The translations under genes were made by a program, and so were the position numbers. DNA of 64,000 bases, taken from positions 2,046,001 to 2,110,000 of the forward strand of contig NZ_CP016591.1 in assembly GCF_001698205.1 (NCBI RefSeq). Direction: 5' to 3'. Positions within the stretch are counted from its first letter, which is position 1, and each line of letters starts with the position of its first letter. The notes under the pieces are model-generated. The model saw nothing but the letters and a program-made list of their open reading frames with translations. It did not search any database and was not told the DNA's origin. This DNA is from Tsuneonella dongtanensis (GTDB taxonomy: Bacteria; Pseudomonadota; Alphaproteobacteria; Sphingomonadales; Sphingomonadaceae). Shown here in pieces: positions 1-54,623 of the stretch.

Positions 1-2684
1 TGGGCAAGGCCGAACCGGTCCGCCCGGTGGATCACGATCGTGTTGGCGCTGGGAATGTCGAGCCCACTCTCGACGATCGTTGTCGAAAGCAGCACCTCGT
101 ACTTGCCCTCGTAGAACGCGCTCATCCGCTCTTCGACCTCGGTCGGGGACATCTGGCCGTGGGCACTGATCGCCTTCACTTCGGGCACGTGCTTGTGCAG
201 CCACTCCTCGACCTCGGGCATGTCGGCGATACGCGGCACGACGATGAAGCTCTGCCCGCCGCGGTGATGCTCGCGCAGCAGTGCCTCGCGCATGACCATA
301 TCGTCCCATTCCATGACGTAAGTCCGCACCGCGAGGCGGTCGACCGGCGGGGTCTGGATGGTGGACAGCTCGCGCAGGCCGCTCATCGCCATCTGCAACG
401 TGCGCGGGATGGGCGTGGCGGTGAGCGTGAGGACGTGGACGTCGGCGCGCAGCTGCTTGAGCTTTTCCTTGTGCGTCACGCCGAAGCGCTGCTCCTCGTC
501 GACGATCACGAGGCCGAGGTTCTTGAACTCGGTCGATTTCGACAGGATCGCGTGGGTTCCGATCACCACGTCGATATCGCCAGACTTGAGGCCGTCGCGG
601 GTGTCCGACGCTTCCTTCGCGCCGACGAGGCGGCTGAGTCGCCCGACCTTCAGCGGGAAGCCTGAGAACCGCGCGGCGAAGTTCTCGTAGTGCTGGCGAG
701 CGAGCAGGGTCGTCGGCGCGACGACCGCGACCTGGCGCCCGCTCATCGCGGTTGCGAAGGCAGCGCGCAGGGCGACCTCGGTCTTCCCGAAGCCGACGTC
801 GCCGCAGACGAGGCGGTCCATCGGCTTGCCGCTGGCGAGATCTTCCAGGACTTCCTCGATCGCGCGGTCCTGGTCGTCGGTCTCCTCCCACGGGAAGCGA
901 TCGACGAACTGGTTGAAGCTCGCTTCCTCGGTCTCGACGACCGCAGCCTTGCGCAGCGCGCGGGCGGCCGCCGTGCGGAGCAGTTCGTGGGCGATCTCCC
1001 GGATGCGTTCCTTGAGGCGGCTGCGGCGCTTCTGCCACGCCTCGCCGCCCAATCGGTCGAGCGCGACCATTTCCTCGCTCGATCCGTAACGGCTGAGGAC
1101 CTCGAGGTTCTCTACGGGCACGTAGAGCTTGTCGCCCCCGTGGTACTCCAGCATCACGCAGTCGTGCTTCGACTTGCCGACGGGGATCGCTTCGAGGCCG
1201 AGGTACTTGCCAATCCCGTGGTCGATGTGAACCACGAGGTCGCCCGCATTGAGCGCCTGAAGCTCGGCAAGGAAGGCGTCGGCACTCTTGCGCTTCTTTT
1301 TGCGGCGGACGAGCCGGTCGCCGAGCACGTCGGCTTCGGTGAGGAGATCCACCTGCTCGTTCGCGAACCCGGCCTCGAGCGGCAGGACCAGCGCGACGGG
1401 CTTGCCTTTCGCACTGAGGCCGAGGGCCTCCTGCCAGGTTTCGGCGAGCGCCATCGGTGCGCCCGCTTCACCGATGATCGACGCGATGCGCGCGCGGCTG
1501 CCCTTGGAATAGGTCGCGAGCAAGGGCTTCTTGCCCGCCTTGCCCGCCGCCTTCAGATGATCGGCGGCGGCGGCATAGACGTTGTCGCCTCGGGTCCGTT
1601 CAGGTGCGAAGTCGCGCCCCGAGCGGAAACCGAAATCGACCACGCCCGCGCCTTCGGGCTCCGCAAAGATCGAGGCGCGGTGGATCGGGCCTTCGGCAAG
1701 CGCGGCGTCGAGCTCGCCCTGCGTCAGGTAGAGCGCGTCTTCGGGAAGCGGGCGATATGTGCCTTCCTCGCGCTGGCGGTGGTAGTCGGCCACGTCCGTC
1801 AGGCGCTCGTCGGCGGCACCCAGCGCAGCGTTGTCGATCACCAGAAGGTCGTCGGGCGAAAGGTGGTCGAACAGCGTCGCCATCCGCTCCTCGAACAGGG
1901 GAAGCCAGTGTTCCATGCCCGCAAGGCGCCGGCCGTCGCTGACTGCCTGGTAGAGCGGGTCCTGCGTCGCGTTGGCCCCGAACCGCTCCCGGTAACGGGT
2001 GCGGAAACGCTTGATCGTGTCTTCGTCGAGCAGCGCCTCGCTCGCGGGAATGAGAAGGTGGCGCTCGATCACCCCGGTGGTCATCTGGGTGTTGGGATCG
2101 AACAGGCGCAACGACTCCAGCTCGTCGCCGAAGAAGTCGAGCCGTAGCCCCGCCTCGAGGCCGCTCGGAAATAGGTCGAAGATGGAGCCGCGCACCGCGA
2201 ACTCGCCGTGGTCGATGACCGTGTCGGTGCGGTTGTAGCCCTGGCGCTGGAGCAGCGCGATCAGCGCCTCACGGGCGATTTCCATCCCCGGCCTGATCTC
2301 GCGCACCGCCTCGCGCACGCGGAAGGGGGTGAGTACGCGCTGGAGGACCGCGTTGATCGTGGTGACCAGCAGTTGCGACCCGGTCTTGCCGGCCTGGAGA
2401 CGGTGCAGCGCGGCGAGCCGCCGGGCGCTGACCGAGAGGGCGGGGGAGGCGCGGTCGTAGGGCAGGCAGTCCCACGCCGGAAACTCGACGACCTCCAGCT
2501 CGGGCGCGAAATATCGCGCGGCCTCGGCAAGTCCGGACATCGCCGCTTCGTCGGGCGCGATAAAGACGGCGCGTCCCTTCGACGCCCGCGCGAGGTCCGC
2601 CATCACCAGCGGCTGGGCACCGCGCGGGATCGAGGACAGCGTCAGCGGCGTCTTGGCGGACAGGATCTTCTGGAGGTCGGGCAT
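1..2684 (-). CDS. mfd: Transcription-repair coupling factor Mfd (3' part outside window)
   Basis: Mfd is an ATP-driven DNA translocase that removes RNA polymerase stalled at lesions and recruits UvrA. Reading from the ATG at 2684 (AGGA-type ribosome site about 6 nt upstream), about 894 residues are inside the window; the C-terminal part lies beyond base 1. Visible in order are a UvrB-like N-terminal module, the CarD-like RNA polymerase interaction domain (GDLVVHIDHGIGKYLG, near residue 480), and a RecG-like motor with Walker A (GDVGFGKTEVA, near 625), DEEQRFG (near 727) and TATPIPRT. The family is usually about 1150 residues, so roughly a quarter is missing only because of the window edge. 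It follows sdhE on the same strand after a 120-base gap. Product identification is very secure. Confidence 0.97.
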   Translation of the reverse strand, partial: MPDLQKILSAKTPLTLSSIPRGAQPLVMADLARASKGRAVFIAPDEAAMSGLAEAARYFAPELEVVEFPAWDCLPYDRASPALSVSARRLAALHRLQAGKTGSQLLVTTINAVLQRVLTPFRVREAVREIRPGMEIAREALIALLQRQGYNRTDTVIDHGEFAVRGSIFDLFPSGLEAGLRLDFFGDELESLRLFDPNTQMTTGVIERHLLIPASEALLDEDTIKRFRTRYRERFGANATQDPLYQAVSDGRRLAGMEHWLPLFEERMATLFDHLSPDDLLVIDNAALGAADERLTDVADYHRQREEGTYRPLPEDALYLTQGELDAALAEGPIHRASIFAEPEGAGVVDFGFRSGRDFAPERTRGDNVYAAAADHLKAAGKAGKKPLLATYSKGSRARIASIIGEAGAPMALAETWQEALGLSAKGKPVALVLPLEAGFANEQVDLLTEADVLGDRLVRRKKKRKSADAFLAELQALNAGDLVVHIDHGIGKYLGLEAIPVGKSKHDCVMLEYHGGDKLYVPVENLEVLSRYGSSEEMVALDRLGGEAWQKRRSRLKERIREIAHELLRTAAARALRKAAVVETEEASFNQFVDRFPWEETDDQDRAIEEVLEDLASGKPMDRLVCGDVGFGKTEVALRAAFATAMSGRQVAVVAPTTLLARQHYENFAARFSGFPLKVGRLSRLVGAKEASDTRDGLKSGDIDVVIGTHAILSKSTEFKNLGLVIVDEEQRFGVTHKEKLKQLRADVHVLTLTATPIPRTLQMAMSGLRELSTIQTPPVDRLAVRTYVMEWDDMVMREALLREHHRGGQSFIVVPRIADMPEVEEWLHKHVPEVKAISAHGQMSPTEVEERMSAFYEGKYEVLLSTTIVESGLDIPSANTIVIHRADRFGLA

Positions 2685-44091: not shown

Positions 44092-44106
44092 GAACATAAA
44101 GGGAAC
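44092..44106 (+). promoter_or_regulatory. LexA box over the imuA promoter
   Basis: GAAC (44092-44095), N7 and GAAC (44103-44106) is the complement of the alphaproteobacterial SOS box GTTC-N7-GTTC. It covers a probable -10 element (CATAAA 44095-44100) located 17 bases after TTGCGA (44072-44077). The box ends two bases before ATG 44109, the same geometry as at 48335-48349. Confidence 0.9.
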
Positions 44107-44108
44107 GA

Positions 44109-44900
44109 ATGAGTCGTTTGTCTGCCATGACCTCCCCGAACGCGCTCCTGCCGGCCTCAGGGCTTGCCTGCCTGTCCACCCACACACCGCGCTGGCGGCC
44201 GGGGCTGGCAGGGGCGCACCACAGCGAGGTGTTCGGTGCCTCGCGCGAGGCGAGCGGAGCGGCCGCCGCGCTTGCGCTCGCCGCCGATGCGCTCGCTGCG
44301 GCGGATCGGTCGGAGACGGCAGAGGCTGACGACCGCCGCGTTCTGCTGTGGGTGCAGGATCGCAATGCGCTGCGGCTCGGCGGGCGCCCCTATCGGCCGG
44401 GCCTGCCGAAGGTGTTCCGCCACCGCCTCGTCCACGTCGTCTGCGAGAAACCCGAGGATGCGCTCTTCGCGCTCGAGGAGGGCTTGCGCTGCCGCGAGGT
44501 GGCAGCGGTCGTCGGCGAGCTGGCGGGCAATCCCCGGGCGCTCGATTTCACCGCCTCGCGGCGACTGACGCTGACCGCCGAAAAGCATGGCGTGCCGTTG
44601 TGGCTCGTTCGGCTCGACGCGCAGCGCGACCTGTCGTCGGCCCGGCTGCGGTGGGAGATGACCTCAGCTCCCTCTCCGGCTCCGCGCTGGAACGCCGCCG
44701 CGCCCGGCACACCGTCCTGGCGTGCCGAACTGTTCCGCGCTCGTATGCATCCCCCCGGCACATGGACCCTGCGCGATGACGACAACGGTCTCGCCGCCAC
44801 GCGTCTCGCCGACTGCGATCCCGACTATAGGCATGCGGCCGCGCCGTATCCTCTCGGTCTGGCTTTCGCGGCTGGCGATCGATCGCTGGCGGCTTGCTAG
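44109..44900 (+). CDS. imuA: SOS mutagenesis accessory protein ImuA
   Basis: Accessory protein of the ImuA-ImuB-DnaE2 mutasome, a RecA/SulA-like small protein. The 263-residue product has the family core: HHSEVFGASREASGAAAALALAADAL, RRVLLWVQDRNALRLGGRPYRPGL, VVCEKPEDALFALEEGLRCREVAAVVGEL and RRLTLTAEKHGVPLWLVRL, ending with WRAELFRARMHPPGTWTL. ATG 44109 lies right behind the LexA box and probably at the transcription start; ATG 44127 (MTSPNAL) is the alternative. It overlaps imuB by 68 bases, which indicates tight coupling. Induction by DNA damage is inferred from the box. Confidence 0.9.
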   Translation: MSRLSAMTSPNALLPASGLACLSTHTPRWRPGLAGAHHSEVFGASREASGAAAALALAADALAAADRSETAEADDRRVLLWVQDRNALRLGGRPYRPGLPKVFRHRLVHVVCEKPEDALFALEEGLRCREVAAVVGELAGNPRALDFTASRRLTLTAEKHGVPLWLVRLDAQRDLSSARLRWEMTSAPSPAPRWNAAAPGTPSWRAELFRARMHPPGTWTLRDDDNGLAATRLADCDPDYRHAAAPYPLGLAFAAGDRSLAAC

Positions 44901-46401
44901 CGGGCTGGCGCCGGGCGAGGGCGCCGACGCCGAACCCTATGCCCTGATCACCGAAACCGCGCACGGACCGCGGATCGATGCCGCCAACGCCGCGGGGCTC
45001 GCAGGCGGAGCGCGCAGCGGCATGATGCTGGCCGATGCGCGTGCGCTCTGTCCCCAGCTCAAGGTCGCGCCGAGCGATCCGGCCGGGACGCACGATTTCC
45101 TCGAAAAGCTCGCCGTCTGGGCGCTGCGCTGGGGGCCTTGGAGCGCGATGGACGCGCCCGACGGTCTGCTCTTGGACGTCACTGCCGTCGCCCACCTGTT
45201 CGGCGGCGAGGCAAGGCTGCTTGTCGATGCCGGGGCGCGATTCGAGGCGCGCGGGCTGTCGGCGAGGTTCGCCATCGCGCCGACCGCAGGCGCGGCATGG
45301 GCATTGTCGCATTACGGACTGCCATCGACGATCCTGCCCGCGCACGGTGACATCGCCGCCGCGCTGGCCGGGCTCCCCGTCGCTGCGCTGCGTCTCGATG
45401 CCGACGTCCTCGCAGTGCTCCGCCGCCTCGGCCTCAAGCGGATCGGCGACCTGACCGACCGGTTCGAGGAGCACCGGGGGCGCGACGCGCTCCACCGTCG
45501 CTTCCGCAACCGCAAGTCGCCCGGTGCGAACCCGCTGGTCCGGCTCGACCAACTTCTCGGCAAGGTGCCCGAACCGCTGTTGCCGGTGATCCCCACCGAG
45601 ATGCCGCTGGTGCAGCGGCGGCTGATGGAGCCGATCCGCCACCGCGACCTGCTCGACCGGGTGCTCGCCGACCTGGCCGCCGACATGGCGCGCGAACTGG
45701 AGGGCAAGGGGCAGGGCGCCCGCCGGCTCGAACTCGGCCTGTGGCGAATCGACGGTGAAGTGGTCGTCCGCCGGCTCGAACTCGCCGCCGCCACGCGCGA
45801 GGCAGCGCATATCGTGCGGCTGTTCTCCGCCAAGATCGACGACGTCGACGCCGGCTTCGGGATCGAGACCGTGCGCCTCCGCGCAAGCTGGGCCGAGCCA
45901 CTCGCGCTGGCGCAAGCCGATATCGAGGCGGCGGCGGAGGAGCACGGGACATCGCTCGCCGCGTGCATCGACCGGCTGACGGTGCGGCTCGGCCCGCGCG
46001 CGGTGACCAAGCCGGTGCTCCACGCCAGCCACATCCCCGAACGCGCGCAGCGCTGGCAGCCACCGCTCGCGCCCGAGCCGGCCAGCCAGGGCGAACTCGC
46101 CTTTCACACCCGGCCGCTGAAACTGCTCGACCGCGCGGAGAAAATCGCCGTCCTCTACGCCACCCCCGACGGACACCCGCAGCGCTTCCGCTGGCGGGGC
46201 GAGGTGCACGAGGTGGTAAGGGTGGAGGGGCCCGAACGGATCGCGCCCGAATGGTGGCGCGAGAAGGGCAGTGCGCGGCTGCGCGACTACTACCGGATCG
46301 AGGACCACGCGGGCCGCCGCTACTGGATCTACCGCCTCGGCCTGATCGGCGACGGGCGGGGCGGGATGCCCGACTGGTTCCTGCAGGGGCTGTGCAGCTA
46401 G
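44833..46401 (+). CDS. imuB: ImuB, inactive Y-family polymerase-like protein
   Basis: Hub of the mutasome that links the beta clamp, ImuA and DnaE2. The 522-residue product (MRPRRILSVWLSRLAIDRWRL) resembles DinB/UmuC. The first catalytic acidic pair of true Y-family polymerases is not seen at the N-terminus (SVWLSRLAIDRW instead of a DxDxF pattern), as expected for ImuB. It has a thumb/little-finger region (GLKRIGDLTDRFEEHRGRDALHRRFRN) and a C-terminal part RGEVHEVVRVEGPERIAPEWWRE, RDYYRIEDHAGRRYWIYR. ATG 44833 is preferred over 44722, which would lie deep inside imuA. dnaE2 is not adjacent but 4.6 kb downstream. Confidence 0.93.
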   Translation: MRPRRILSVWLSRLAIDRWRLASGLAPGEGADAEPYALITETAHGPRIDAANAAGLAGGARSGMMLADARALCPQLKVAPSDPAGTHDFLEKLAVWALRWGPWSAMDAPDGLLLDVTAVAHLFGGEARLLVDAGARFEARGLSARFAIAPTAGAAWALSHYGLPSTILPAHGDIAAALAGLPVAALRLDADVLAVLRRLGLKRIGDLTDRFEEHRGRDALHRRFRNRKSPGANPLVRLDQLLGKVPEPLLPVIPTEMPLVQRRLMEPIRHRDLLDRVLADLAADMARELEGKGQGARRLELGLWRIDGEVVVRRLELAAATREAAHIVRLFSAKIDDVDAGFGIETVRLRASWAEPLALAQADIEAAAEEHGTSLAACIDRLTVRLGPRAVTKPVLHASHIPERAQRWQPPLAPEPASQGELAFHTRPLKLLDRAEKIAVLYATPDGHPQRFRWRGEVHEVVRVEGPERIAPEWWREKGSARLRDYYRIEDHAGRRYWIYRLGLIGDGRGGMPDWFLQGLCS

Positions 46402-46510: not shown

Positions 46511-47239
46511 TCAGTCTTCCCACGAACCCGTGCGGCGGTAGCGCGCGAGCAGAGTAGCCAGCGTTGGGGTGTGCCCGCCAGTCGGCGCGCTAAGGCCGGT
46601 GGTGCGTCCAAAGCTTGCCGGAGACGGCCCCGCGTCTACGTCTCCGGGCGCGGAGTGCGGCCCTTCCGCTTCCAGCAGGTCCGTGATTTCCCCCGCGAAC
46701 CGCTGCTCTGCCTCCGGCTCACGCTCCATCACCTGATCCGGATGCGGGCGGCGAAACTGCATCTCACCGACGATAGACGGTACGTCGACTTTCGCGATGG
46801 GCGGGGCTGCGGGCTCGGTCTCCACCGGCGCCGAATCTTCCGGCCGCACACGCTTCAGAAAACCCATCGACCGCTTGCGCCCCTGCGTAATGTTGCCGAC
46901 GCTGGCGATCGGCAGCTCCACTACCCGGTCAAGAGCTGCAGTTTCGGCGACAAGTTCGGCCGACAGAGGCGTCTGGAACCATACGCCGCACGCGCCGTCG
47001 TCGTGCCAGATGACCGTGCAGACGGCCTCGTGCGTACCCCAGCGGAGCAGCGCAGTGGCGCCCTTTCCGGGCGGCTCAGCCGCTTCGAAACGGGCGCCGG
47101 TCTCGGATATATCGCCGAGGATGCCGTGCGTCATCGTCGTCATCGTCTGAAGGCTAGCGGAACAAGTGACCCGAATGCGGCGCGACGCGCGGCGTTCCGC
47201 ATAGGCAACGTCATCAGCGATGCGGAGCAGTTCTGACAC
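46511..47239 (-). CDS. PilZ domain protein with disordered C-terminal tail
   Basis: Probable cyclic-di-GMP receptor. The first 110 residues carry the PilZ motifs ERRASRRIRV (RxxxR) and GDISETGARFE (DxSxxG), then the beta barrel (CTVIWHDDGACGVWFQTP). The remaining 130 residues (PEDSAPVETEPAAPPIAKV ...) are low complexity and end with TLATLLARYRRTGSWED. Start GTG 47239; the frame has no ATG before the RRxxR motif, so GTG decides the start. The gene lies between imuB and a hydrolase gene, facing imuB. No diguanylate cyclase nearby. Confidence 0.83.
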   Translation of the reverse strand: MSELLRIADDVAYAERRASRRIRVTCSASLQTMTTMTHGILGDISETGARFEAAEPPGKGATALLRWGTHEAVCTVIWHDDGACGVWFQTPLSAELVAETAALDRVVELPIASVGNITQGRKRSMGFLKRVRPEDSAPVETEPAAPPIAKVDVPSIVGEMQFRRPHPDQVMEREPEAEQRFAGEITDLLEAEGPHSAPGDVDAGPSPASFGRTTGLSAPTGGHTPTLATLLARYRRTGSWED

Positions 47240-47289
47240 GCACGCAGACTTGTCACGGAGCGGTGAATTCGCGGTGTCCGGCCATGGTA

Positions 47290-47321
47290 AACGGGCGCGT
47301 TACCATCGTGACGCGCCCGTT
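47290..47321 (-). terminator. Intrinsic terminator of the hydrolase gene
   Basis: AACGGGCGCGT and its exact complement (11-base stem, ten-base loop) lie 22 bases after the stop of the alpha/beta hydrolase gene. On the minus strand the stem is followed by TTTACC, a short T-rich end. Confidence 0.7.
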
Positions 47322-47342
47322 CTCGTTTCAATTCACCTTTGG

Positions 47343-48218
47343 TCAGGCCATCTGCGAACTCTTCTCGCTATCGGCCTTTACTGTGTGATTGCCGCCCTCT
47401 CCGAGGAAAGCGAGCAGGTCGTTCGCGAGCCGATCGGTCTGGGTTGCGAAGACGGCATGCGGTTCGCCGTCGTATTCGATAAGGCGGGCGCTCGGAACGG
47501 CATCGGCCACGGCGCGACCTGTGGCGTCGATCGGCACCGTTGCGTCCTTGGTGCCATGGATCACCAGCGTCGGGACCTTGAAGTGGGCAAGGTCGGGGCG
47601 GAAATCGGTCGTGGCGAACGCGCCCGCTGATTGTAACGTGGCATACTGGCTGGCGTGCATGGTCGTCATCCACGCCCAGTCCTTTTCTTCTTGGCTCACT
47701 TTGTCAGTCAGGATGCCATCGCCGTAGAAATCCTCGAAGAAGCCGGTGAAGAAGTGGCGGAAATCCTTCTTCATGCCATCGGTCATTTCGTCGAAGGTCG
47801 ATTGCGGCACGCCGGCGGGGTTGTCGTCGGTCTTCAGCATGTACGGCACAACCGAGCTTACCAGAACCGTCTGGCTTACACCCTTGCCGCCATGTCGATT
47901 CATGTATCGCGCGATCTCGCCGCCACCCATCGAGAACCCCACCAGCGCTACATCATTCGTGGCTCCGGTTTCCTTCATGACGTCAGCGAGGTCGTCCGAG
48001 AAAGTGTCGTAGTCATAGCCCTTGGCCGCATGGTCCGAGTGCCCGAACCCGCGGCGGTCGTAGGCAATCGCACGATAACCGCTATCCGCCAGCTTGATCA
48101 TGATCGGATCCCAGCTGTCGGCGCTGAGCGGCCATCCGTGGATGAGGATTACCGGGCGACCCTCACCAAGCTCCTTCCAACGTATCTTCGTCCCGTCGCG
48201 TGTGGTGGCGTGTGGCAT
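47343..48218 (-). CDS. Alpha/beta hydrolase (non-heme haloperoxidase-like)
   Basis: A 291-residue hydrolase of the cofactor-free chloroperoxidase/esterase group. Visible are the oxyanion motif LIHGWPLSADSWDP, the nucleophile elbow GFSMGGGE, Asp in LVIHGTKDATVPID and His in YDGEPHAVF. About 100 residues of cap domain (YMLKTDDNPAGVPQSTFDEMTDGMKKDF) lie between. The ribosome site GGAAGGA precedes ATG 48218. Homologues act on esters or in vitro on halides with peroxide; the physiological substrate is unknown. It is divergent from the SOS operon and separated by 133 bases. Confidence 0.88.
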   Translation of the reverse strand: MPHATTRDGTKIRWKELGEGRPVILIHGWPLSADSWDPIMIKLADSGYRAIAYDRRGFGHSDHAAKGYDYDTFSDDLADVMKETGATNDVALVGFSMGGGEIARYMNRHGGKGVSQTVLVSSVVPYMLKTDDNPAGVPQSTFDEMTDGMKKDFRHFFTGFFEDFYGDGILTDKVSQEEKDWAWMTTMHASQYATLQSAGAFATTDFRPDLAHFKVPTLVIHGTKDATVPIDATGRAVADAVPSARLIEYDGEPHAVFATQTDRLANDLLAFLGEGGNHTVKADSEKSSQMA

Positions 48219-48334
48219 TTGTTATCCTTCCGTAAGTGTCTGGGTTACCAATCTTGTTTCCTGATTTCCGTTTCATGCGTGCGACGGGCTGAGGGTAATT
48301 TGCCTTCAACGCCCTCTTGGCGAATCCTGCATGA

Positions 48335-48349
48335 GAACATATAAGGAAC
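48335..48349 (+). promoter_or_regulatory. LexA box over the promoter of the rSAM-udgX-dnaE2 operon
   Basis: GAAC (48335-48338), N7 and GAAC (48346-48349), complement of GTTC-N7-GTTC. It overlaps the -10 element TATAAG (48340-48345), which lies 17 bases after TTGGCG (48317-48322). The box ends two bases before ATG 48352. Predicted transcription start falls at or one base from this ATG. Confidence 0.92.
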
Positions 48350-48351
48350 AG

Positions 48352-49596
48352 ATGGGCACGCAGACCACCATCGAAAAGCTGGAAATCCTTGCCGATGCGG
48401 CGAAGTACGATGCGTCGTGCGCGTCGTCCGGCACATCCAAGCGCAACTCAACCGGCGGCAAGGGCATCGGCTCGACCGAAGGAATGGGCATTTGCCACGC
48501 CTACGCGCCAGACGGCCGTTGCATCAGCCTGCTCAAGATCCTGCTGACCAACCACTGCGTGTTCGACTGCCACTACTGCGTCAACCGCAAGAGCTCGAAC
48601 GTGCGCCGCGCGCGGTTCACCCCGCAAGAGGTAGTGGACCTCACGCTCAGCTTCTACCGCCGCAATTACATTGAGGGACTGTTTCTCTCCTCGGGCATCG
48701 TCAAGAGCTCGAACCACACGATGGAGCAGCTGGTCGAGGTTGCGCGGATGCTGCGCGAAGAGCACGACTTCCGCGGCTATATCCACCTTAAGACCATCCC
48801 CGAAGCCGATCCCGAACTCGTCCACCAGGCCGGGCTCTACGCCGACCGCGTGTCGATCAACGTCGAGCTGCCGACCGATGCCGGCCTCACCCGCCTCGCG
48901 CCCGACAAGAACGCGCGGCAGATCGAGGGCGCGATGGGCAAACTGAAGAGCGACATCGTCGAGGCGAAGGACAACCGAAAGCGCTTTCGCCACGCACCGC
49001 GCTTCGCGCCAGCGGGCCAGTCCACCCAGATGATCGTCGGGGCGGATGCGGCAACCGATGCGGATATCGTGGGGAAGGCGAGCCGACTCTACGACAGTTT
49101 CCGTCTGCGCCGCGTCTATTACAGCGCGTTCTCGCCCATTCCCGATGCTAGCGCGGTGCTGCCGCTGAAGCGCCCGCCGCTGATCCGCGAGCACCGGCTC
49201 TACCAGTCGGATTGGCTGATGCGCTTCTATGGTTACCAGCCTAGTGAAGTCATGCAGGCGACCGAGGCGGACGGCAACCTGCCGCTCGACATTGATCCCA
49301 AGTTGGCCTGGGCGCTCAAGTTTCGCGAACGCTTTCCGGTCGACGTCAACCGTGCGTCGAAAGAGCAGTTGCTGCGCGTGCCGGGGCTGGGCGTGCGCGC
49401 GGTGGGGCGCATCCTTGCGAGCCGGCGGCACCGCACGATGCGGCTAGAAGACGTCGCCAAGCTCACCGTGTCGATTGCCAAGGTGCGCCCGTTCATCGTC
49501 ACCGCCGACTGGCGTCCGGTGCTCCTGACCGACCGCGCCGACCTGCGTGCTCTGCTTGCACCGAAGCAGGAGCAGCTTGAGCTGTTTGCCGCATGA
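48352..49596 (+). CDS. UDG-linked putative DNA repair/modification radical SAM protein
   Basis: A 414-residue protein of the family described in TIGRFAM as rSAM linked to UDG. It starts at ATG 48352; the in-frame ATG at 48331 lies inside the promoter and LexA box and is rejected. It has the radical SAM cluster CVFDCHYC (Cys69, Cys73, Cys76), GLFLSSGIVKSSNHTMEQL and VSINVELPTDAGLTRLAPDK in the barrel. Near the C-terminus is a helix-hairpin-helix (VNRASKEQLLRVPGLGVRAVGRILASR, about 335-362), suggesting DNA binding. The reaction is unknown. It heads an operon with udgX 10 bases downstream; SOS induction is inferred from the LexA box. Confidence 0.92.
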   Translation: MGTQTTIEKLEILADAAKYDASCASSGTSKRNSTGGKGIGSTEGMGICHAYAPDGRCISLLKILLTNHCVFDCHYCVNRKSSNVRRARFTPQEVVDLTLSFYRRNYIEGLFLSSGIVKSSNHTMEQLVEVARMLREEHDFRGYIHLKTIPEADPELVHQAGLYADRVSINVELPTDAGLTRLAPDKNARQIEGAMGKLKSDIVEAKDNRKRFRHAPRFAPAGQSTQMIVGADAATDADIVGKASRLYDSFRLRRVYYSAFSPIPDASAVLPLKRPPLIREHRLYQSDWLMRFYGYQPSEVMQATEADGNLPLDIDPKLAWALKFRERFPVDVNRASKEQLLRVPGLGVRAVGRILASRRHRTMRLEDVAKLTVSIAKVRPFIVTADWRPVLLTDRADLRALLAPKQEQLELFAA

Positions 49597-49606
49597 GGTT
49601 TTGGGC

Positions 49607-51046
49607 ATGACCGCTCTGCAGCACGTCAAGCTCGGCACCTACTATGTCGTCGCGCTGCCCGAGGCTGACGATTTCGACTTCTGGCGCGAGCGGGCACGCG
49701 CGTTGGTACAGTGCGAGGTGCCGCCCGACCGGATCGCGTGGGTCGAGCCGGGCGGATCGGGCAGCCTGTTCTCGCACGGTGATCGCCGCCTGCCGGTGCC
49801 GCCCGCCGATGCCCCGCCGGTGCGCGCGAGCAAGGCGTTCGTAAGCCTCGCGAAGTCGGCGATCTGTCACTCCGATCCCGAGCGGTTCGCGCTGCTCTAT
49901 CGCCTGCTGTGGCGACTGCAGGCCAATCCGCGCCTGCTCGAGGACGGGGCCGATACCGAGGTACGGCGGCTCGACGAACTCGCGCGCACCGTGCGCCGCG
50001 ACATCCACAAGATGCGCGCTTTCGTCCGCTTCCGGCTCGTGGAGAGCGAGGACGAAGAGGCGGGAGAGCATTACGTCGCCTGGTTCGAGCCCGAGCATCA
50101 TATCCTGCGAACCAACGCCGGGTTCTTCGTCCGCCGCTTCGCCAACATGAAGTGGTCGATCCTGACGCCCAAGGGTTCGCTGCACTGGGACGGTAACGTG
50201 CTCGAGGAAGGCCCGCCCGCGCAGCGCAGCGATGCGCCGCAGGGCGATCCCACGGAGGATCTCTGGCGCAAGTACTACGCATCGATCTTCAACCCGGCGC
50301 GACTGAAGATAGGGGCGATGCTCAAGGAAATGCCCCGCAAGTATTGGAAGAACATGCCCGAGGCAGTGCTTATCCCCGAGCTGGTCGCCGGGGCGCAATC
50401 GCGGGAGTCGCAGATGGTCGCAGCAGGTGCGCTGGAGTTCGACGAGCGACCCGAAACGCTTGAGGCAATCGACAAGGCGATCCACGCCTGCCGCAAGTGC
50501 CCCATCGGTTCCTTGGACAACCACGCGGTGATGGGGGAGGGGCCGAAGGACGCCGCTTTGATGATCGTCGGCGAACAGCCGGGCGACCAGGAGGACCTCG
50601 CCGGACGACCATTCGTCGGCCCCGCGGGGCAGCTGCTCGACTGGCATCTCGAACGCGCGGGGATCGACCGGCGCAGCGCCTACGTCACCAACGCGGTCAA
50701 GCATTTCAAGTTCGTGCAGCGGGGCAAGCGGCGGCTGCACCAGTCGCCTACGGCCAAGGAGATCGATACCTGCCGCTGGTGGGTGGAAAGCGAGCGCCAG
50801 ATCGTGCAGCCCAGGCTGATCCTCGCGATGGGCGCGAGCGCGGCGCGCGGGATGCTCGGCAAGACGGTGAGCATCTCGAAGGCCCGCGGGGCCCCGATAC
50901 CGCTCGAAGACGGCAGCGAACTGTGGGTCACCGCACACCCCAGCTACCTGCTCCGTCTCGACGGCGCAGCGCAGGAAGAACAGTCGCGGCTGTTCGATGC
51001 CGATCTTGCCGCGGTGAAGGCGCGCCTCGCGGAACTCGCGGGATGA
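49607..51046 (+). CDS. udgX: DUF4130-UdgX fusion uracil-DNA binding protein
   Basis: A 479-residue two-domain protein. Residues about 1-260 match the DUF4130 family that accompanies the linked radical SAM protein (TYYVVALPEADDFDFWRERARAL, HSDPERFALLYRLLWRL, DELARTVRRDIHKMRAFVRFR). Residues about 280-479 form a UDG-fold domain: four-Cys-cluster start (CRKCPIG), GEQPGDQEDLAGRPFVGPAGQLLD, VKHFKF, and the UdgX hallmark KRRLHQSP with His378. In M. smegmatis UdgX the equivalent His bonds covalently to the abasic site after uracil removal. ATG 49607 is chosen; the longer frame overlaps the radical SAM gene. dnaE2 starts one base after its stop. Confidence 0.92.
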   Translation: MTALQHVKLGTYYVVALPEADDFDFWRERARALVQCEVPPDRIAWVEPGGSGSLFSHGDRRLPVPPADAPPVRASKAFVSLAKSAICHSDPERFALLYRLLWRLQANPRLLEDGADTEVRRLDELARTVRRDIHKMRAFVRFRLVESEDEEAGEHYVAWFEPEHHILRTNAGFFVRRFANMKWSILTPKGSLHWDGNVLEEGPPAQRSDAPQGDPTEDLWRKYYASIFNPARLKIGAMLKEMPRKYWKNMPEAVLIPELVAGAQSRESQMVAAGALEFDERPETLEAIDKAIHACRKCPIGSLDNHAVMGEGPKDAALMIVGEQPGDQEDLAGRPFVGPAGQLLDWHLERAGIDRRSAYVTNAVKHFKFVQRGKRRLHQSPTAKEIDTCRWWVESERQIVQPRLILAMGASAARGMLGKTVSISKARGAPIPLEDGSELWVTAHPSYLLRLDGAAQEEQSRLFDADLAAVKARLAELAG

Positions 51047-51047
51047 C

Positions 51048-54000
51048 ATGCCCGAGAACGACCTCCTCATCCCGCGCCGGCGGATCGAACTCGACGACCC
51101 GTCGGCCGTAGCCCCGCCGCCGCGCGCTGCGTTCGTCGAGCTGGGGCTCATTTCCAACTTCAGCTTCCTGCGCGGTGCATCCGACGCGGTCGACCTGGTA
51201 CTGACCGCCCATGCGCTCGGCTACGATGCGATCGGCATCGCAGATGCGAACTCGATGGCGGGCGTCGTGCGGGTGCACACCGAGGCGAAGACTCTCAAGA
51301 TGCGGCCCGTCATCGGCTGCCGGATCGAAACGGTCGAGGGGCTCGCCTTCCTCGCCTATCCCACCGACCGGGCCGCCTACGGCCGCCTGTGCAAATTGAT
51401 CAGCGCAGGCCGGATGCGCACGCTCGAAGGCGAATGGCAGGCCAAGGGCGCGTGCGACATCGACCTTGCGATGCTCGCGAAGCATGCCGAAGGGGTGCAG
51501 CTGATCCTCCTGCCGCCGGACGATCTGGGGGCCCGCTTCGTCATCCCGGCATGGGCAAGCAACGTGGTCACGCTCGGCGGCGAGCAGGCGCAGGAAGCGG
51601 TCGGCGGGGATTTCGCCCAGCTTATCGGACATCTGGTTGCGGGCCTTCCCACCCTCCGCCACCTCGCCGCGAGCTACCTCCACGTCGGCGACGATATCGC
51701 GCGCATCGACCGGCTCGATTCGCTGGCGAAGGACCATGGCCTGTCGCTGCTCGCGACCAACGACGTGCACTACCACACCCCCGAGCGGCGCCCGCTGCAG
51801 GACGTGATGGTGGCGATCCGGCACAAGACCACCGTGGCCGAAGCCGGACATCTGCTGTTCGGTAATGCCGAGCGGCACCTGAAGGGTCCTGCCGAGATGG
51901 CGGCGCTGTTCGATCGCTGGCCCCACGCCATCGCCGCGGCGCGCAGCGTGGCGGATGCCTGCGACTTCACGCTCGACGAGCTGCAGTACGAATATCCGCA
52001 GGAAATCTACCCCGACGGGATGACACCGCAGGCGTTCCTCGAAGGCGAGACGTGGAAAGGTGCCGAGTGGCGCTATCCGGGCGGCTTGCCGGATGCGGTC
52101 CGCGCGACCTTGCACCGCGAGCTGGCGCTCATCGGCAAGCTCGACCTTGCGCGCTATTTTCTCACGATCAAGGACATCGTCGATTACGCGCGCGGGGTCG
52201 ATCCGCCGATCCTGTGCCAGGGGCGCGGAAGTGCGGCGAACTCGGCGGTCTGTTATTGCCTCGGCATTACCAGCGTCGACCCGGCGAAGCACGCGCTGCT
52301 GTTCGACCGCTTCATCTCGGAAGAGCGCAAGGAGCCGCCCGACATCGATGTCGACTTCGAACACGAGCGGCGCGAGGAGGTGATCCAGCACATCTATCGC
52401 CAGTACGGTCGCCACCGCGCCGGGCTCTGCGCCACGGTGATCCACTACCGCCCGCGCATGGCCATCCGCGAGGTGGGCAAGGCGATGGGCCTGTCGGAGG
52501 ATGTAACCAGCGCGCTCGCCCGCACCGTGTGGGGCGGGTGGGGCAAGGAAATCGGCGACAAGCACGTCGAGGAGACGGGCATGGACGTGACCGATCCGCA
52601 CTTGCGGCGCGTCCTCAAACTGACCGAGCAAATGATTGGAATGCCGCGCCATTTGTCGCAACACGTCGGGGGATTCATCCTCACGGACGGGCCGCTGACC
52701 GAGACCGTGCCGATCGGCAACGGCGCGATGCCCGACCGCAGCTTCATCGAATGGGACAAGGACGACATCGAGGCGCTGGGCATCCTCAAGGTCGACGTGC
52801 TTGCGCTGGGGATGCTTACTTGCATCAGGAAATGCCTCGATCTCATTGAAAACACGCACGAACGCACGCTTACGCTGGCCACCGTCCCGCGCGAGGACCC
52901 CGAGACATACGCGATGCTCCGCAAGGGCGACTCGCTCGGCGTGTTCCAAGTCGAGAGCCGCGCGCAGATGAACATGCTGCCCCGCCTGCGTCCGCGCGAA
53001 TTCTACGACCTCGTGATCCAGGTCGCGATCGTGCGCCCCGGGCCGATCCAGGGGGACATGGTGCACCCCTACCTCAAGCGCCGCCGTGGGGCCGAACAGG
53101 TCGTGATCCCCGCGCCGAGCCCCGAGCACGGCCCGCCCGACGAGCTCTCCAGCATCCTCGAGCGTACGCTGGGGGTGCCGATCTTCCAGGAACAGGCGAT
53201 GAAGATCGCGCTCGACGCGGCCAAGTTCTCCTCGCTCGAGGCGAACCGGCTACGCAAGGCGATGGCGACTTTCCGCAGCCGCGGCATGGTCGACGAGCTG
53301 CAGGACATGATGGTCGAGCGGATGGTCGAGCGCGGTTACGATCGCGAGTTCGCCCAGCGCTGCTTCAACCAGATCCGCGGCTTCGGCGAATACGGCTTTC
53401 CGGAGAGCCACGCGGCCAGCTTCGCGCACCTCGTCTACGTATCCAGCTGGCTCAAGTGCCACTTCCCGGCCGCGTTCGGCTGCGCCTTGCTCAACTCGCA
53501 GCCGATGGGTTTCTACGCCCCGGCGCAGATCGTGCGTGACGCCGTGGAACATGGCGTCACGGTGCTGCCCGCCGACGTCAACGCGTCGGAATGGGATTGC
53601 ACGCTCGAAGTCGTGGGCCAAGTGGAAGCAGGGCGGCGCGACAGCACCAGTCTGGACCGGGGCCGCCTCGACCGGCATATCGCCCTGCGCCTCGGTCTCA
53701 GGCAAGTCGATGGATTGCCCGAGCACGTCGCCGCCCGGCTGCTGGCCGAACGGGCCGAGCGCGGATCATTCGCTGACGTCACGGCGCTGCGCGACCGTGC
53801 GGGCATTTCGCCCGCCCACATCGAGCGGCTCGCCAGCGCCGACGCCTTCCAGTCGATCCATCTCCCTCGGCGCCAGGCATTGTGGGACGCGCGCAGCCTG
53901 ATCGGAGGGCCCGACCTGCCGCTGTTCGCTTTTGCCGAGGCGAGGGACGAAGGCGGCGAGGCCGTGCCCACCGCGCTCCCCCGCATGCCGCTCTCCGAAG

Positions 54001-54623
54001 AGGTCGTCGCCGATTACCAGACCACCCGCCTCAGCCTGAAGGCGCACCCGATGGCGTTCCTGCGCGCTTCACTGGCCGAGCGCGGCTTCGTGCGCGCCTG
54101 CGACCTGCGTGCGCGCAAGTTCCGCAGCATGGTGCAGGTCGCCGGCGTCGTACTCATCCGCCAGCGGCCGGGCAGCGCCAAGGGCGTATGCTTCATCACG
54201 CTGGAGGACGAGACCGGGGTCATCAACCTTGTCGTCTGGCCCGACCTCAAGGAAAAGCAGCGCAAGGTGGTGATGGGATCGCGGCTGATGGAGGTGCGCG
54301 GCCGGGTCGAATACGACGACGAGGTGATCCATGTGATCGCCCACCACATGACCGACGCGACGCACGAACTCCACCGCCTCAGCGACGACCTCATCAAGAC
54401 GCCGATCGCCCGCGCCGACCACTGCAACAACCCGTTGCCTGCGCGCTGGGGCCCGAAAGACGATCTGCGCGAGGGTGCGGACGATCCGCACCAGACCCAG
54501 GCAGTCGAGCCGTGGGAGCCGCCACCCCCCAACAATCGCGAATGCGGGTTCCATGGCCATCCACGCGACGCGCGCATCGTCCCGAAGCTGTTGCCGCTCC
54601 CCCCGAGCCGAGACTTCCACTGA
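51048..54623 (+). CDS. dnaE2: Error-prone DNA polymerase III alpha subunit DnaE2 (ImuC)
   Basis: SOS translesion polymerase of the C family. The 1191 residues begin with a PHP domain (FVELGLISNFSFLRGASDAVDLV) in which the usual HxH metal ligands are absent, so proofreading-type activity is unlikely. The catalytic palm has PPDIDVDFEHERREEVI with Asp432 and Asp434, and GILKVDVLALGMLT. RGMVDELQDMM and the fingers follow, then an OB domain (VQVAGVVLIRQRPGSAKGVCFITLEDETGVINLVVW). Disordered C-terminal tail. It is the third gene of the LexA-controlled operon, not adjacent to imuAB as in most genomes. Start ATG 51048 is 2 bases after the udgX stop. Confidence 0.96.
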   Translation: MPENDLLIPRRRIELDDPSAVAPPPRAAFVELGLISNFSFLRGASDAVDLVLTAHALGYDAIGIADANSMAGVVRVHTEAKTLKMRPVIGCRIETVEGLAFLAYPTDRAAYGRLCKLISAGRMRTLEGEWQAKGACDIDLAMLAKHAEGVQLILLPPDDLGARFVIPAWASNVVTLGGEQAQEAVGGDFAQLIGHLVAGLPTLRHLAASYLHVGDDIARIDRLDSLAKDHGLSLLATNDVHYHTPERRPLQDVMVAIRHKTTVAEAGHLLFGNAERHLKGPAEMAALFDRWPHAIAAARSVADACDFTLDELQYEYPQEIYPDGMTPQAFLEGETWKGAEWRYPGGLPDAVRATLHRELALIGKLDLARYFLTIKDIVDYARGVDPPILCQGRGSAANSAVCYCLGITSVDPAKHALLFDRFISEERKEPPDIDVDFEHERREEVIQHIYRQYGRHRAGLCATVIHYRPRMAIREVGKAMGLSEDVTSALARTVWGGWGKEIGDKHVEETGMDVTDPHLRRVLKLTEQMIGMPRHLSQHVGGFILTDGPLTETVPIGNGAMPDRSFIEWDKDDIEALGILKVDVLALGMLTCIRKCLDLIENTHERTLTLATVPREDPETYAMLRKGDSLGVFQVESRAQMNMLPRLRPREFYDLVIQVAIVRPGPIQGDMVHPYLKRRRGAEQVVIPAPSPEHGPPDELSSILERTLGVPIFQEQAMKIALDAAKFSSLEANRLRKAMATFRSRGMVDELQDMMVERMVERGYDREFAQRCFNQIRGFGEYGFPESHAASFAHLVYVSSWLKCHFPAAFGCALLNSQPMGFYAPAQIVRDAVEHGVTVLPADVNASEWDCTLEVVGQVEAGRRDSTSLDRGRLDRHIALRLGLRQVDGLPEHVAARLLAERAERGSFADVTALRDRAGISPAHIERLASADAFQSIHLPRRQALWDARSLIGGPDLPLFAFAEARDEGGEAVPTALPRMPLSEEVVADYQTTRLSLKAHPMAFLRASLAERGFVRACDLRARKFRSMVQVAGVVLIRQRPGSAKGVCFITLEDETGVINLVVWPDLKEKQRKVVMGSRLMEVRGRVEYDDEVIHVIAHHMTDATHELHRLSDDLIKTPIARADHCNNPLPARWGPKDDLREGADDPHQTQAVEPWEPPPPNNRECGFHGHPRDARIVPKLLPLPPSRDFH

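Follow-up and report, generated by a model that had tools for sequence, protein, structure and literature searches.

What does a radical S-adenosylmethionine (SAM) protein do when its gene stands, behind a LexA box, in front of the gene of the error-prone polymerase DnaE2? The question is raised by a locus in a 64,000-nucleotide stretch of Tsuneonella dongtanensis DNA (contig NZ_CP016591.1, positions 2,046,001 to 2,110,000; hereafter the window), where the gene of this protein (rSAM), a gene for a fusion of a DUF4130 and a UdgX domain, and dnaE2 form a tightly packed row. The answer that we favour, with a probability of about 60 per cent, is SOS-induced lesion processing that is tethered to the sliding clamp and takes place beside the mutasome. 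Cleavage of LexA would allow rSAM, the fusion and DnaE2 to be made together, probably from a leaderless message. By its tail rSAM would dock on the beta clamp, beside ImuB with its own clamp-like motif, and the chemistry of rSAM and DUF4130 would be directed at a damaged or deaminated base that the stalled clamp has met. UdgX, an optional domain, may covalently hold uracil-derived abasic sites, and DnaE2 would copy past the lesion that remains. In this scheme the module would work beside the mutasome and would not be an obligatory part of it.

The predicted SOS promoter and clamp-binding tail

The label of the rSAM family has so far been putative DNA modification/repair only. The predicted clamp-binding tail, together with a deeply conserved LexA control and a recurring linkage to the mutasome, suggests that the protein works at the replication clamp after DNA damage. 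These features were followed in an order sample of 147 genomes, 59 of them with rSAM over the family cut-off, in a phylum sample of 72 rSAM genomes, in a class sample of 14 and in 80 named loci that partly overlap the sampled genomes; the genomes in every sample are related, and the counts given below do not represent independent events.

The bare LexA pattern alone is weak evidence, being mildly enriched: GAACN7GAAC occurs at 5 sites in the window against 1.9 expected (5 were reached in 7 of 100 shuffles); on both strands of the genome it has 80 sites, and the reversed control has 48. Despite this, the box before rSAM can be regarded as real because it is conserved in orthologues. It starts between -60 and -10 of the rSAM start in 58/59 orthologues of the order sample, and at exactly -17 in 47/59, against 1/59 for a control window of equal width (-360 to -310), which rules out a chance occurrence. 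The class sample (13/14) and the named loci (76/80) show the same; the loci without a box at this place in the three sets are L099, L134, L187, L198, L228 and L229. An E. coli-type box, CTGTN8ACAG, is found between -60 and -10 in 13 of 18 non-alpha Pseudomonadota loci, and a LexA box precedes imuA in all 24 loci with a located imuA, window included. A conserved box at the promoter, as looked for in members of a LexA regulon, is therefore present. The LexA control, the single transcription unit of three genes and the tie to mutagenic repair that a sequence-only reading of the window had proposed are all borne out, as far as sequence can speak for them.

Promoter columns were compared in 95 distinct upstream sequences selected to have the box at -17. 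Positions -36 to -31 hold a conserved -35 element (C 64%, T 86%, T 49%, G 82%, G or A 73%, C 75%), and positions -12 to -9, within the box, read TATA (T and A 100%, T 73%, A 86%). At a spacer of 16-18 bp, 67/95 sequences agree with TTGACA at four or more of the six positions, compared with 7 to 21 at three control spacings. As the -10 element falls within the LexA box, LexA would sit on it and block the promoter directly. Transcription is predicted to start at or next to the A of the rSAM ATG, giving a leaderless message; AAGGA inside the box of the window is a possible ribosome site. Judged by these columns, the predicted SOS promoter of rSAM is deeply conserved.

The C-terminus of rSAM, a strong clue that the sequence-only reading had overlooked, reads QLELFAA, and residues 408-414 of this tail have a predicted local distance difference test score (pLDDT) under 50 in the structure model. 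An invariant Gln, the near-terminal place and the flexibility of the tail are the reasons for matching it to the clamp-binding peptide of bacteria, the consensus of which is QL[S/D]LF (PMC3716654). A relaxed motif, Q[LMF]xL[FLIAV], and a strict one, Q[LM][SDEANTG]LF, were both scored in the last 20 residues of 148 distinct rSAM proteins from the order, class and named samples. The relaxed motif is present in all 148 and the strict one in 133, with no strict match elsewhere in these proteins (0/148). Among 2852 other distinct, mechanically called open reading frames (ORFs) of at least 150 amino acids (aa) in the fetched loci, the relaxed motif ends 11 and the strict one 3, and all 3 look like fragments of rSAM family members; of the 152 window ORFs of at least 100 aa, rSAM only has the end motif. 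A wider pattern in the last 40 residues fits 24 of 25 further loci, mostly from other groups, and the first Gln of the motif is invariant in 173/173 aligned rSAM sequences, Bacteroidota, Bacillota and Gemmatimonadota members included. rSAM thus carries, at an exposed terminus, the QL[S/D]LF-type peptide by which beta-clamp clients are recognized. ImuB has a clamp-like hexapeptide of its own, QGELAF, at residue 432 of the 535-aa piece starting at 44794, and a Q-x-x-h-x-F hexapeptide occurs in the ImuB proteins of 23/24 linked loci. In mycobacteria the contact between ImuB and the clamp is reported as essential for mutasome function (PMC10421592).

rSAM, DUF4130 and UdgX

The sequence-only reading had made uracil, through UdgX, the common theme of the operon. 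This is not what the phylum sample indicates: all 72 rSAM genomes have DUF4130 over the cut-off, only 56 have UdgX, and 16 have DUF4130 without UdgX over the cut-off. DUF4130 is therefore the constant partner, and UdgX as the core of the module is ruled out. From these profile matches rSAM and DUF4130 look like a constant unit, and uracil capture by UdgX looks like an add-on. A Bacteroidota plasmid copy of rSAM likewise has a TIGR03915 protein behind it and no UdgX in the stretch shown. In the order sample UdgX accompanies rSAM in 59/59 genomes and occurs without rSAM in 2; in 58 of the 59 the two share contig and strand and lie within 4 kb of each other. At 14 of the 59 loci (L100, L103, L104, L108, L110, L118, L120, L122-L127 and L129), rSAM and DUF4130-UdgX are on one strand but have 0.5-3 kb of other sequence between them.

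The covalent-capture motifs of the UdgX domain appear intact. The roles of motif A (GEQPG), of the R-loop histidine and of motif B, HPS(S/A)(L/V)(L/V)R, have been described (PMC10359453); motif B here is HPSYLLR, one position off the published form, and H378, E323 and Q324 do not vary across 41 aligned fusions. The DUF4130 domain also has strongly conserved residues in this alignment. Its fold was not recognized: no solved structure matched significantly by sequence, the 50 matches listed for the fusion among PDB folds are almost all of the uracil-DNA glycosylase (UDG) superfamily and do not reveal the fold of DUF4130, and the viral matches listed, where named, are mostly UDGs and DNA polymerases.

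In rSAM the CX3CX2C cluster motif is kept in 173/173 aligned sequences, that of the window included. Three extra cysteines, C23, C48 and C57, are kept in 172, and all three are gone in the sole exception, L283. Their joint loss suggests that they form one site, perhaps for an accessory Fe-S cluster; the model has low confidence in this region, and no geometry is claimed. The exception (L283:3001-4134), a diverged Gemmatimonadota member that retains a clamp-type motif, QLSLW, offers a natural test of the role of the extra cysteines. A C-terminal helix-hairpin-helix (HhH) is probable from weak ComEA and RuvA sequence matches and from helices in the model. With a mean pLDDT of 84, the model resembles radical SAM barrels generally, and its closest folds are HydE, BioB and LIAS, with template modelling (TM) scores of about 0.4 (Foldseek, best 50 of 61 matches, E <= 0.001). 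Spore photoproduct lyase is not among these best 50 of 61 matches, no direct superposition having been made, nor among the 16 sequence matches.

A phage or defence origin was considered and rejected, rSAM and the fusion having no PADLOC match. One weak radical SAM phrog (E 2e-4) matches rSAM and none matches the DUF4130 part. Among 72,556 plasmid records, 158 have a match to rSAM, from Phaeobacter, Paracoccus, Azospirillum and Leisingera among other genera, and the gene thus occurs on extrachromosomal replicons too.

Linkage to the mutasome and the rival explanations

ORFs and family profiles agree with the sequence-only reading on every coordinate and gene identity of the trio and on the gaps of 10 bp between rSAM and the fusion and 1 bp between the fusion and dnaE2. 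Its view that dnaE2 lies here instead of with imuAB, which did not take imuA, imuB and the box before them into account, has to be abandoned. Since imuB ends 1.95 kb upstream of the rSAM start, on the same strand and behind the LexA box that it has together with imuA, the locus is an imuAB-dnaE2 mutasome cassette with the pair of rSAM and DUF4130-UdgX put before dnaE2. All three mutasome genes lie within 10.5 kb, in two transcription units that each have a LexA box, and two minus-strand genes (46514-48218) separate imuAB from the trio. A minus-strand PilZ match was seen in this neighbourhood in nine of the other 24 linked loci.

Conserved linkage in relatives, the genome-neighbourhood check proposed with the earlier reading, was found: in the order sample dnaE2 directly follows the pair in 25 of the 59 genomes with rSAM. 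All but one of the 25 have imuB upstream of the rSAM match and on its strand, at a distance of 73-3359 bp; in 5 of these 24 it is within 80 bp, which puts imuA-imuB-rSAM-DUF4130/UdgX-dnaE2 in one row; in the remaining linked genome (G027) imuB is on another contig. In a quick rSAM tree of 148 rows, with support from the Shimodaira-Hasegawa-like approximate likelihood-ratio test (SH-aLRT) only and with some unlinked rows that are cut contigs, all 41 linked rows fall in one set of 59 rows (SH-aLRT 99). The order of pair and dnaE2 is therefore a property of one Sphingomonadales clade, with later losses; the linked label changes 12 times on the tree where 5 changes are the least forced, which indicates several losses and/or returns inside the clade.

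Close linkage is found in divergent form as well. In 5/6 genomes of family f144 rSAM and dnaE2 are divergent with a gap of 2.4-2.5 kb, and in five f144 loci rSAM-UdgX runs away from imuA-imuB, with a single LexA-type box between them and dnaE2 beyond the loci. In Henriciella pelagia (L218) dnaE2-imuB-imuA is divergent from rSAM-UdgX, with two boxes between. Three lineages, with two orientations among them, thus have the pair close to the mutasome, and this argues for a functional tie; independence of the two divergent cases is not assumed. Looser divergent arrangements of rSAM and dnaE2, 25 kb apart in G603 and G615 and 41-46 kb apart in G171, G280, G355 and G360, occur in six genomes outside the order; they were not counted as linked and may be remnants of a closer divergent arrangement.

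The tie is not one of mutual need. The order sample divides into 57 genomes with both rSAM and DnaE2, 2 with rSAM alone, 45 with DnaE2 alone and 43 with neither (Fisher p 4e-10 over the 147 genomes, kinship not corrected). In G018 and G095 imuB runs straight into dnaE2 and the pair is missing; in G108 and G105 the pair is missing and the box GAACATATAAGGAAC is kept before dnaE2. This box before dnaE2 in L149 and L150 is perhaps a footprint of the pair-dnaE2 arrangement. The pair is neither needed by DnaE2 nor dependent on it. The proposal that the three products act together accordingly stands as a possibility and fails as an obligation.

Several observations weigh against a tie of clamp, SOS response and mutasome. 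rSAM occurs without DnaE2 in 2/59 genomes of the order sample (G112 and G145, with no ImuB match either) and in 8/72 of the phylum sample (DnaE2 in 64/72), and 45 of the 102 order-sample genomes with DnaE2 have no rSAM. In 34/59 order-sample genomes the pair and dnaE2 are not neighbours; no rSAM of the class sample, outside the order, lies within 40 kb of dnaE2 (0/14); and among the 59 rSAM genomes of the phylum sample outside the family of the window, 51 of which have DnaE2, only 5, all of family f144, have the two within 2.6 kb. The E. coli-type box is missing in 5/18 non-alpha loci (L259, L261, L266, L272 and L280, an Acinetobacter copy). The clamp motif is a short peptide, its relaxed form is met away from the C-terminus in 9/148 rSAM proteins, and the tail of L275, QLGFGF, lies outside even the wider pattern.

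Such exceptions might be taken to mean that the dnaE2 neighbourhood reflects shared regulation only, LexA-controlled repair genes having gathered with no functional contact. Where one side is missing the other keeps its LexA box in the loci examined, and outside the clade dnaE2 is not a neighbour of rSAM at most loci; we nevertheless regard this explanation as rather unlikely in view of the close imuAB-dnaE2 linkage in three lineages and two orientations and of the clamp-type motifs on both rSAM and ImuB. At the other extreme, rSAM, UdgX and DnaE2 would be one obligate uracil-directed mutagenic complex, in which UdgX marks uracil and DnaE2 bypasses it with the help of rSAM. The tight packing of the three genes in 25/59 order-sample genomes and the intact UdgX motifs are in keeping with such a complex, but the 16 of 72 genomes with rSAM and DUF4130 and no UdgX over the cut-off, the existence of rSAM genomes without DnaE2 and the limitation of dnaE2 behind the pair to one clade of the order make it very improbable.

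For clamp-tethered lesion processing beside the mutasome, the account that we prefer, repair of a pyrimidine lesion is our guess at the most likely chemistry. One candidate within it is direct reversal of pyrimidine dimers by rSAM as an SplB-like lesion lyase, which would suit the radical SAM cluster, the probable C-terminal HhH, the SOS control and the description of DUF4130 as associated with SplB-like radical SAM photolyases, a label used by Aravind et al. 2013 (PMC3765255). It seems unlikely, given the three extra conserved cysteines and the Foldseek result, in which HydE, BioB and LIAS at TM of about 0.4 are the best folds listed and spore photoproduct lyase is not among the best 50 of 61 matches. 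An rSAM that uses an accessory Fe-S cluster on C23/C48/C57 to modify or rebuild a base, by sulfur insertion or another addition and with no dimer cleavage, is another chemistry compatible with the preferred account. The retention of the three cysteines in 172/173 sequences, their joint absence from the exception and the sulfur-inserting enzymes LIAS, BioB and MiaB among the fold neighbours agree with it, but the resemblance in fold is modest and of a kind common to radical SAM barrels, confidence in the cysteine region of the model is low, and we hold this chemistry to be decidedly unlikely. A broader generalization, tentative and short of even odds, is that rSAM-DUF4130 represents a widespread undescribed class of clamp-tethered radical enzyme, which at a stalled fork chemically repairs or converts the base lesion that blocks it. 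In this clade the mutasome cassette would have taken in the pair, so that direct repair competes with mutagenic bypass on the same clamp. If the clamp after DNA damage is indeed where rSAM works, the SOS response of bacteria would have radical chemistry on DNA as one of its general arms, and such chemistry would not be a peculiarity of spores.

Table 1. Features of the locus, in positions of the window
Feature	Position	Strand	Basis or remark
LexA box of imuA, GAACATAAAGGGAAC	44092..44106	+	ends 2 bp before imuA ATG
imuA	44109..44900	+	NF033429 30.9 bits, E 2e-7, weak, below family cut-off 150; position before imuB
imuB, ORF (true start probably further in)	44722..46401	+	PF00817, PF11799, PF20114 over cut-off
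PilZ-domain gene, between imuB and trio	46514..47239	-	PF07238
Alpha/beta hydrolase gene, between imuB and trio	47343..48218	-	PF00561
-35 element CTTGGC	48316..48321	+	column conservation, 95 distinct upstream sequences
LexA box of rSAM, GAACATATAAGGAAC	48335..48349	+	ends 2 bp before ATG; conserved
-10 element TATAAG, within LexA box	48340-48345	+	column conservation
rSAM gene, 414 aa	48352..49596	+	TIGR03916 583.1 bits, cut-off 343.5
Extra conserved cysteines C23, C48, C57	48418..48522	+	172/173 sequences; possible accessory metal/Fe-S site
CX3CX2C radical SAM cluster motif, C69, C73, C76	48556..48579	+	173/173 sequences
C-terminal HhH region, DNA-binding (putative)	49324..49503	+	PF12836 23.4 bits, under 27-bit cut-off
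C-terminal beta-clamp-binding motif QLELF (predicted)	49573..49587	+	motif conservation; flexible tail in model
DUF4130-UdgX fusion gene, 479 aa	49607..51046	+	profile scores; Pfam matches in trio PF13566, PF03167
DUF4130 domain	49664..50365	+	TIGR03915 220.3 bits, cut-off 112.25
UdgX domain	50369..51016	+	TIGR03914 320.7 bits, cut-off 189.95; motifs
UdgX motif A GEQPG	50570-50584	+	sequence
UdgX R-loop KRRLH	50726-50740	+	sequence
dnaE2 (imuC), error-prone polymerase	51048..54623	+	NF004225 1373.5 bits, cut-off 939

Other LexA-boxed genes of the genome were inspected at 14 loci of the 80 sites, and most of them have no clear names. A second radical SAM gene of this genome (L033:1194-2423, plus strand, genome position about 2316316) belongs to the PA0069 family (NF033668, 442 bits against a cut-off of 360) and has no significant BLASTP similarity to the rSAM of the window. 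Near its start lies a LexA-type box, GAACATACATGGAAC (1317-1331, minus strand); at least one such box arose in 18/200 shuffles of the L033 stretch. A Streptomyces radical SAM gene is a listed LexA target (PMC9380542).

Comparison with known systems

The pairing of rSAM with UdgX and its SOS control are already known, and the gene group of the window is a variant of this pairing, not a new system. The genes of the pair are presumably the same as those of the COG1573-COG4277 operon of Bacteroidetes, and we take the rSAM gene to be COG4277. That operon is SOS-regulated and shares LexA control with the window; it is a two-gene operon, interpreted as base excision repair, and the available part of the paper places no dnaE2 behind it (PMC8565304). 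SOS control of such a UDG system is cited there for Verrucomicrobia and Alphaproteobacteria (Caulobacter), and in another paper a radical SAM protein of this kind is listed with '?' entered for its process (PMC8307549). For the clamp motif, the promoter within the box and the place beside imuAB before dnaE2, no earlier description was found in a search that missed most subscription papers and all bioRxiv preprints and is to that extent weak.

All three models of the TIGR03916/TIGR03915/TIGR03914 group ('putative DNA modification/repair radical SAM protein') score over cut-off here, and the window differs from that group in having the pair before dnaE2 and beside imuAB. It shares with the imuA-imuB-dnaE2 mutasome the three genes and the LexA boxes on both units, and differs in the division of the cassette by two opposite-strand genes and in the rSAM-UdgX pair before dnaE2. 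The UdgX domain is 42% identical to UdgX of M. smegmatis (E 1.4e-44) and has GEQPG, the R-loop histidine and motif B in common with it; in the window, however, it is fused behind DUF4130 and reads KRRLH where the mycobacterial protein has KRRIH. Spore photoproduct lyase is a radical SAM protein acting on DNA, from which the rSAM of the window differs by its extra cysteines, its probable HhH and its predicted clamp tail. In the archaeal NreB system an SplB-like gene lies beside a gene of a clamp-binding family, and the lesion is left unspecified; there it is the neighbour, and not the radical SAM protein, that bears the clamp peptide (clearly in NreA, less clearly in NreB), and the clamp is archaeal PCNA (PMC4929162). 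Set against these systems, the most useful new points of the present locus are the predicted clamp-binding tail, DUF4130 as the apparent constant partner and the separability of the pair from DnaE2, and the QLELF tail and DUF4130, rather than UdgX, are the handles for probing the function of rSAM.

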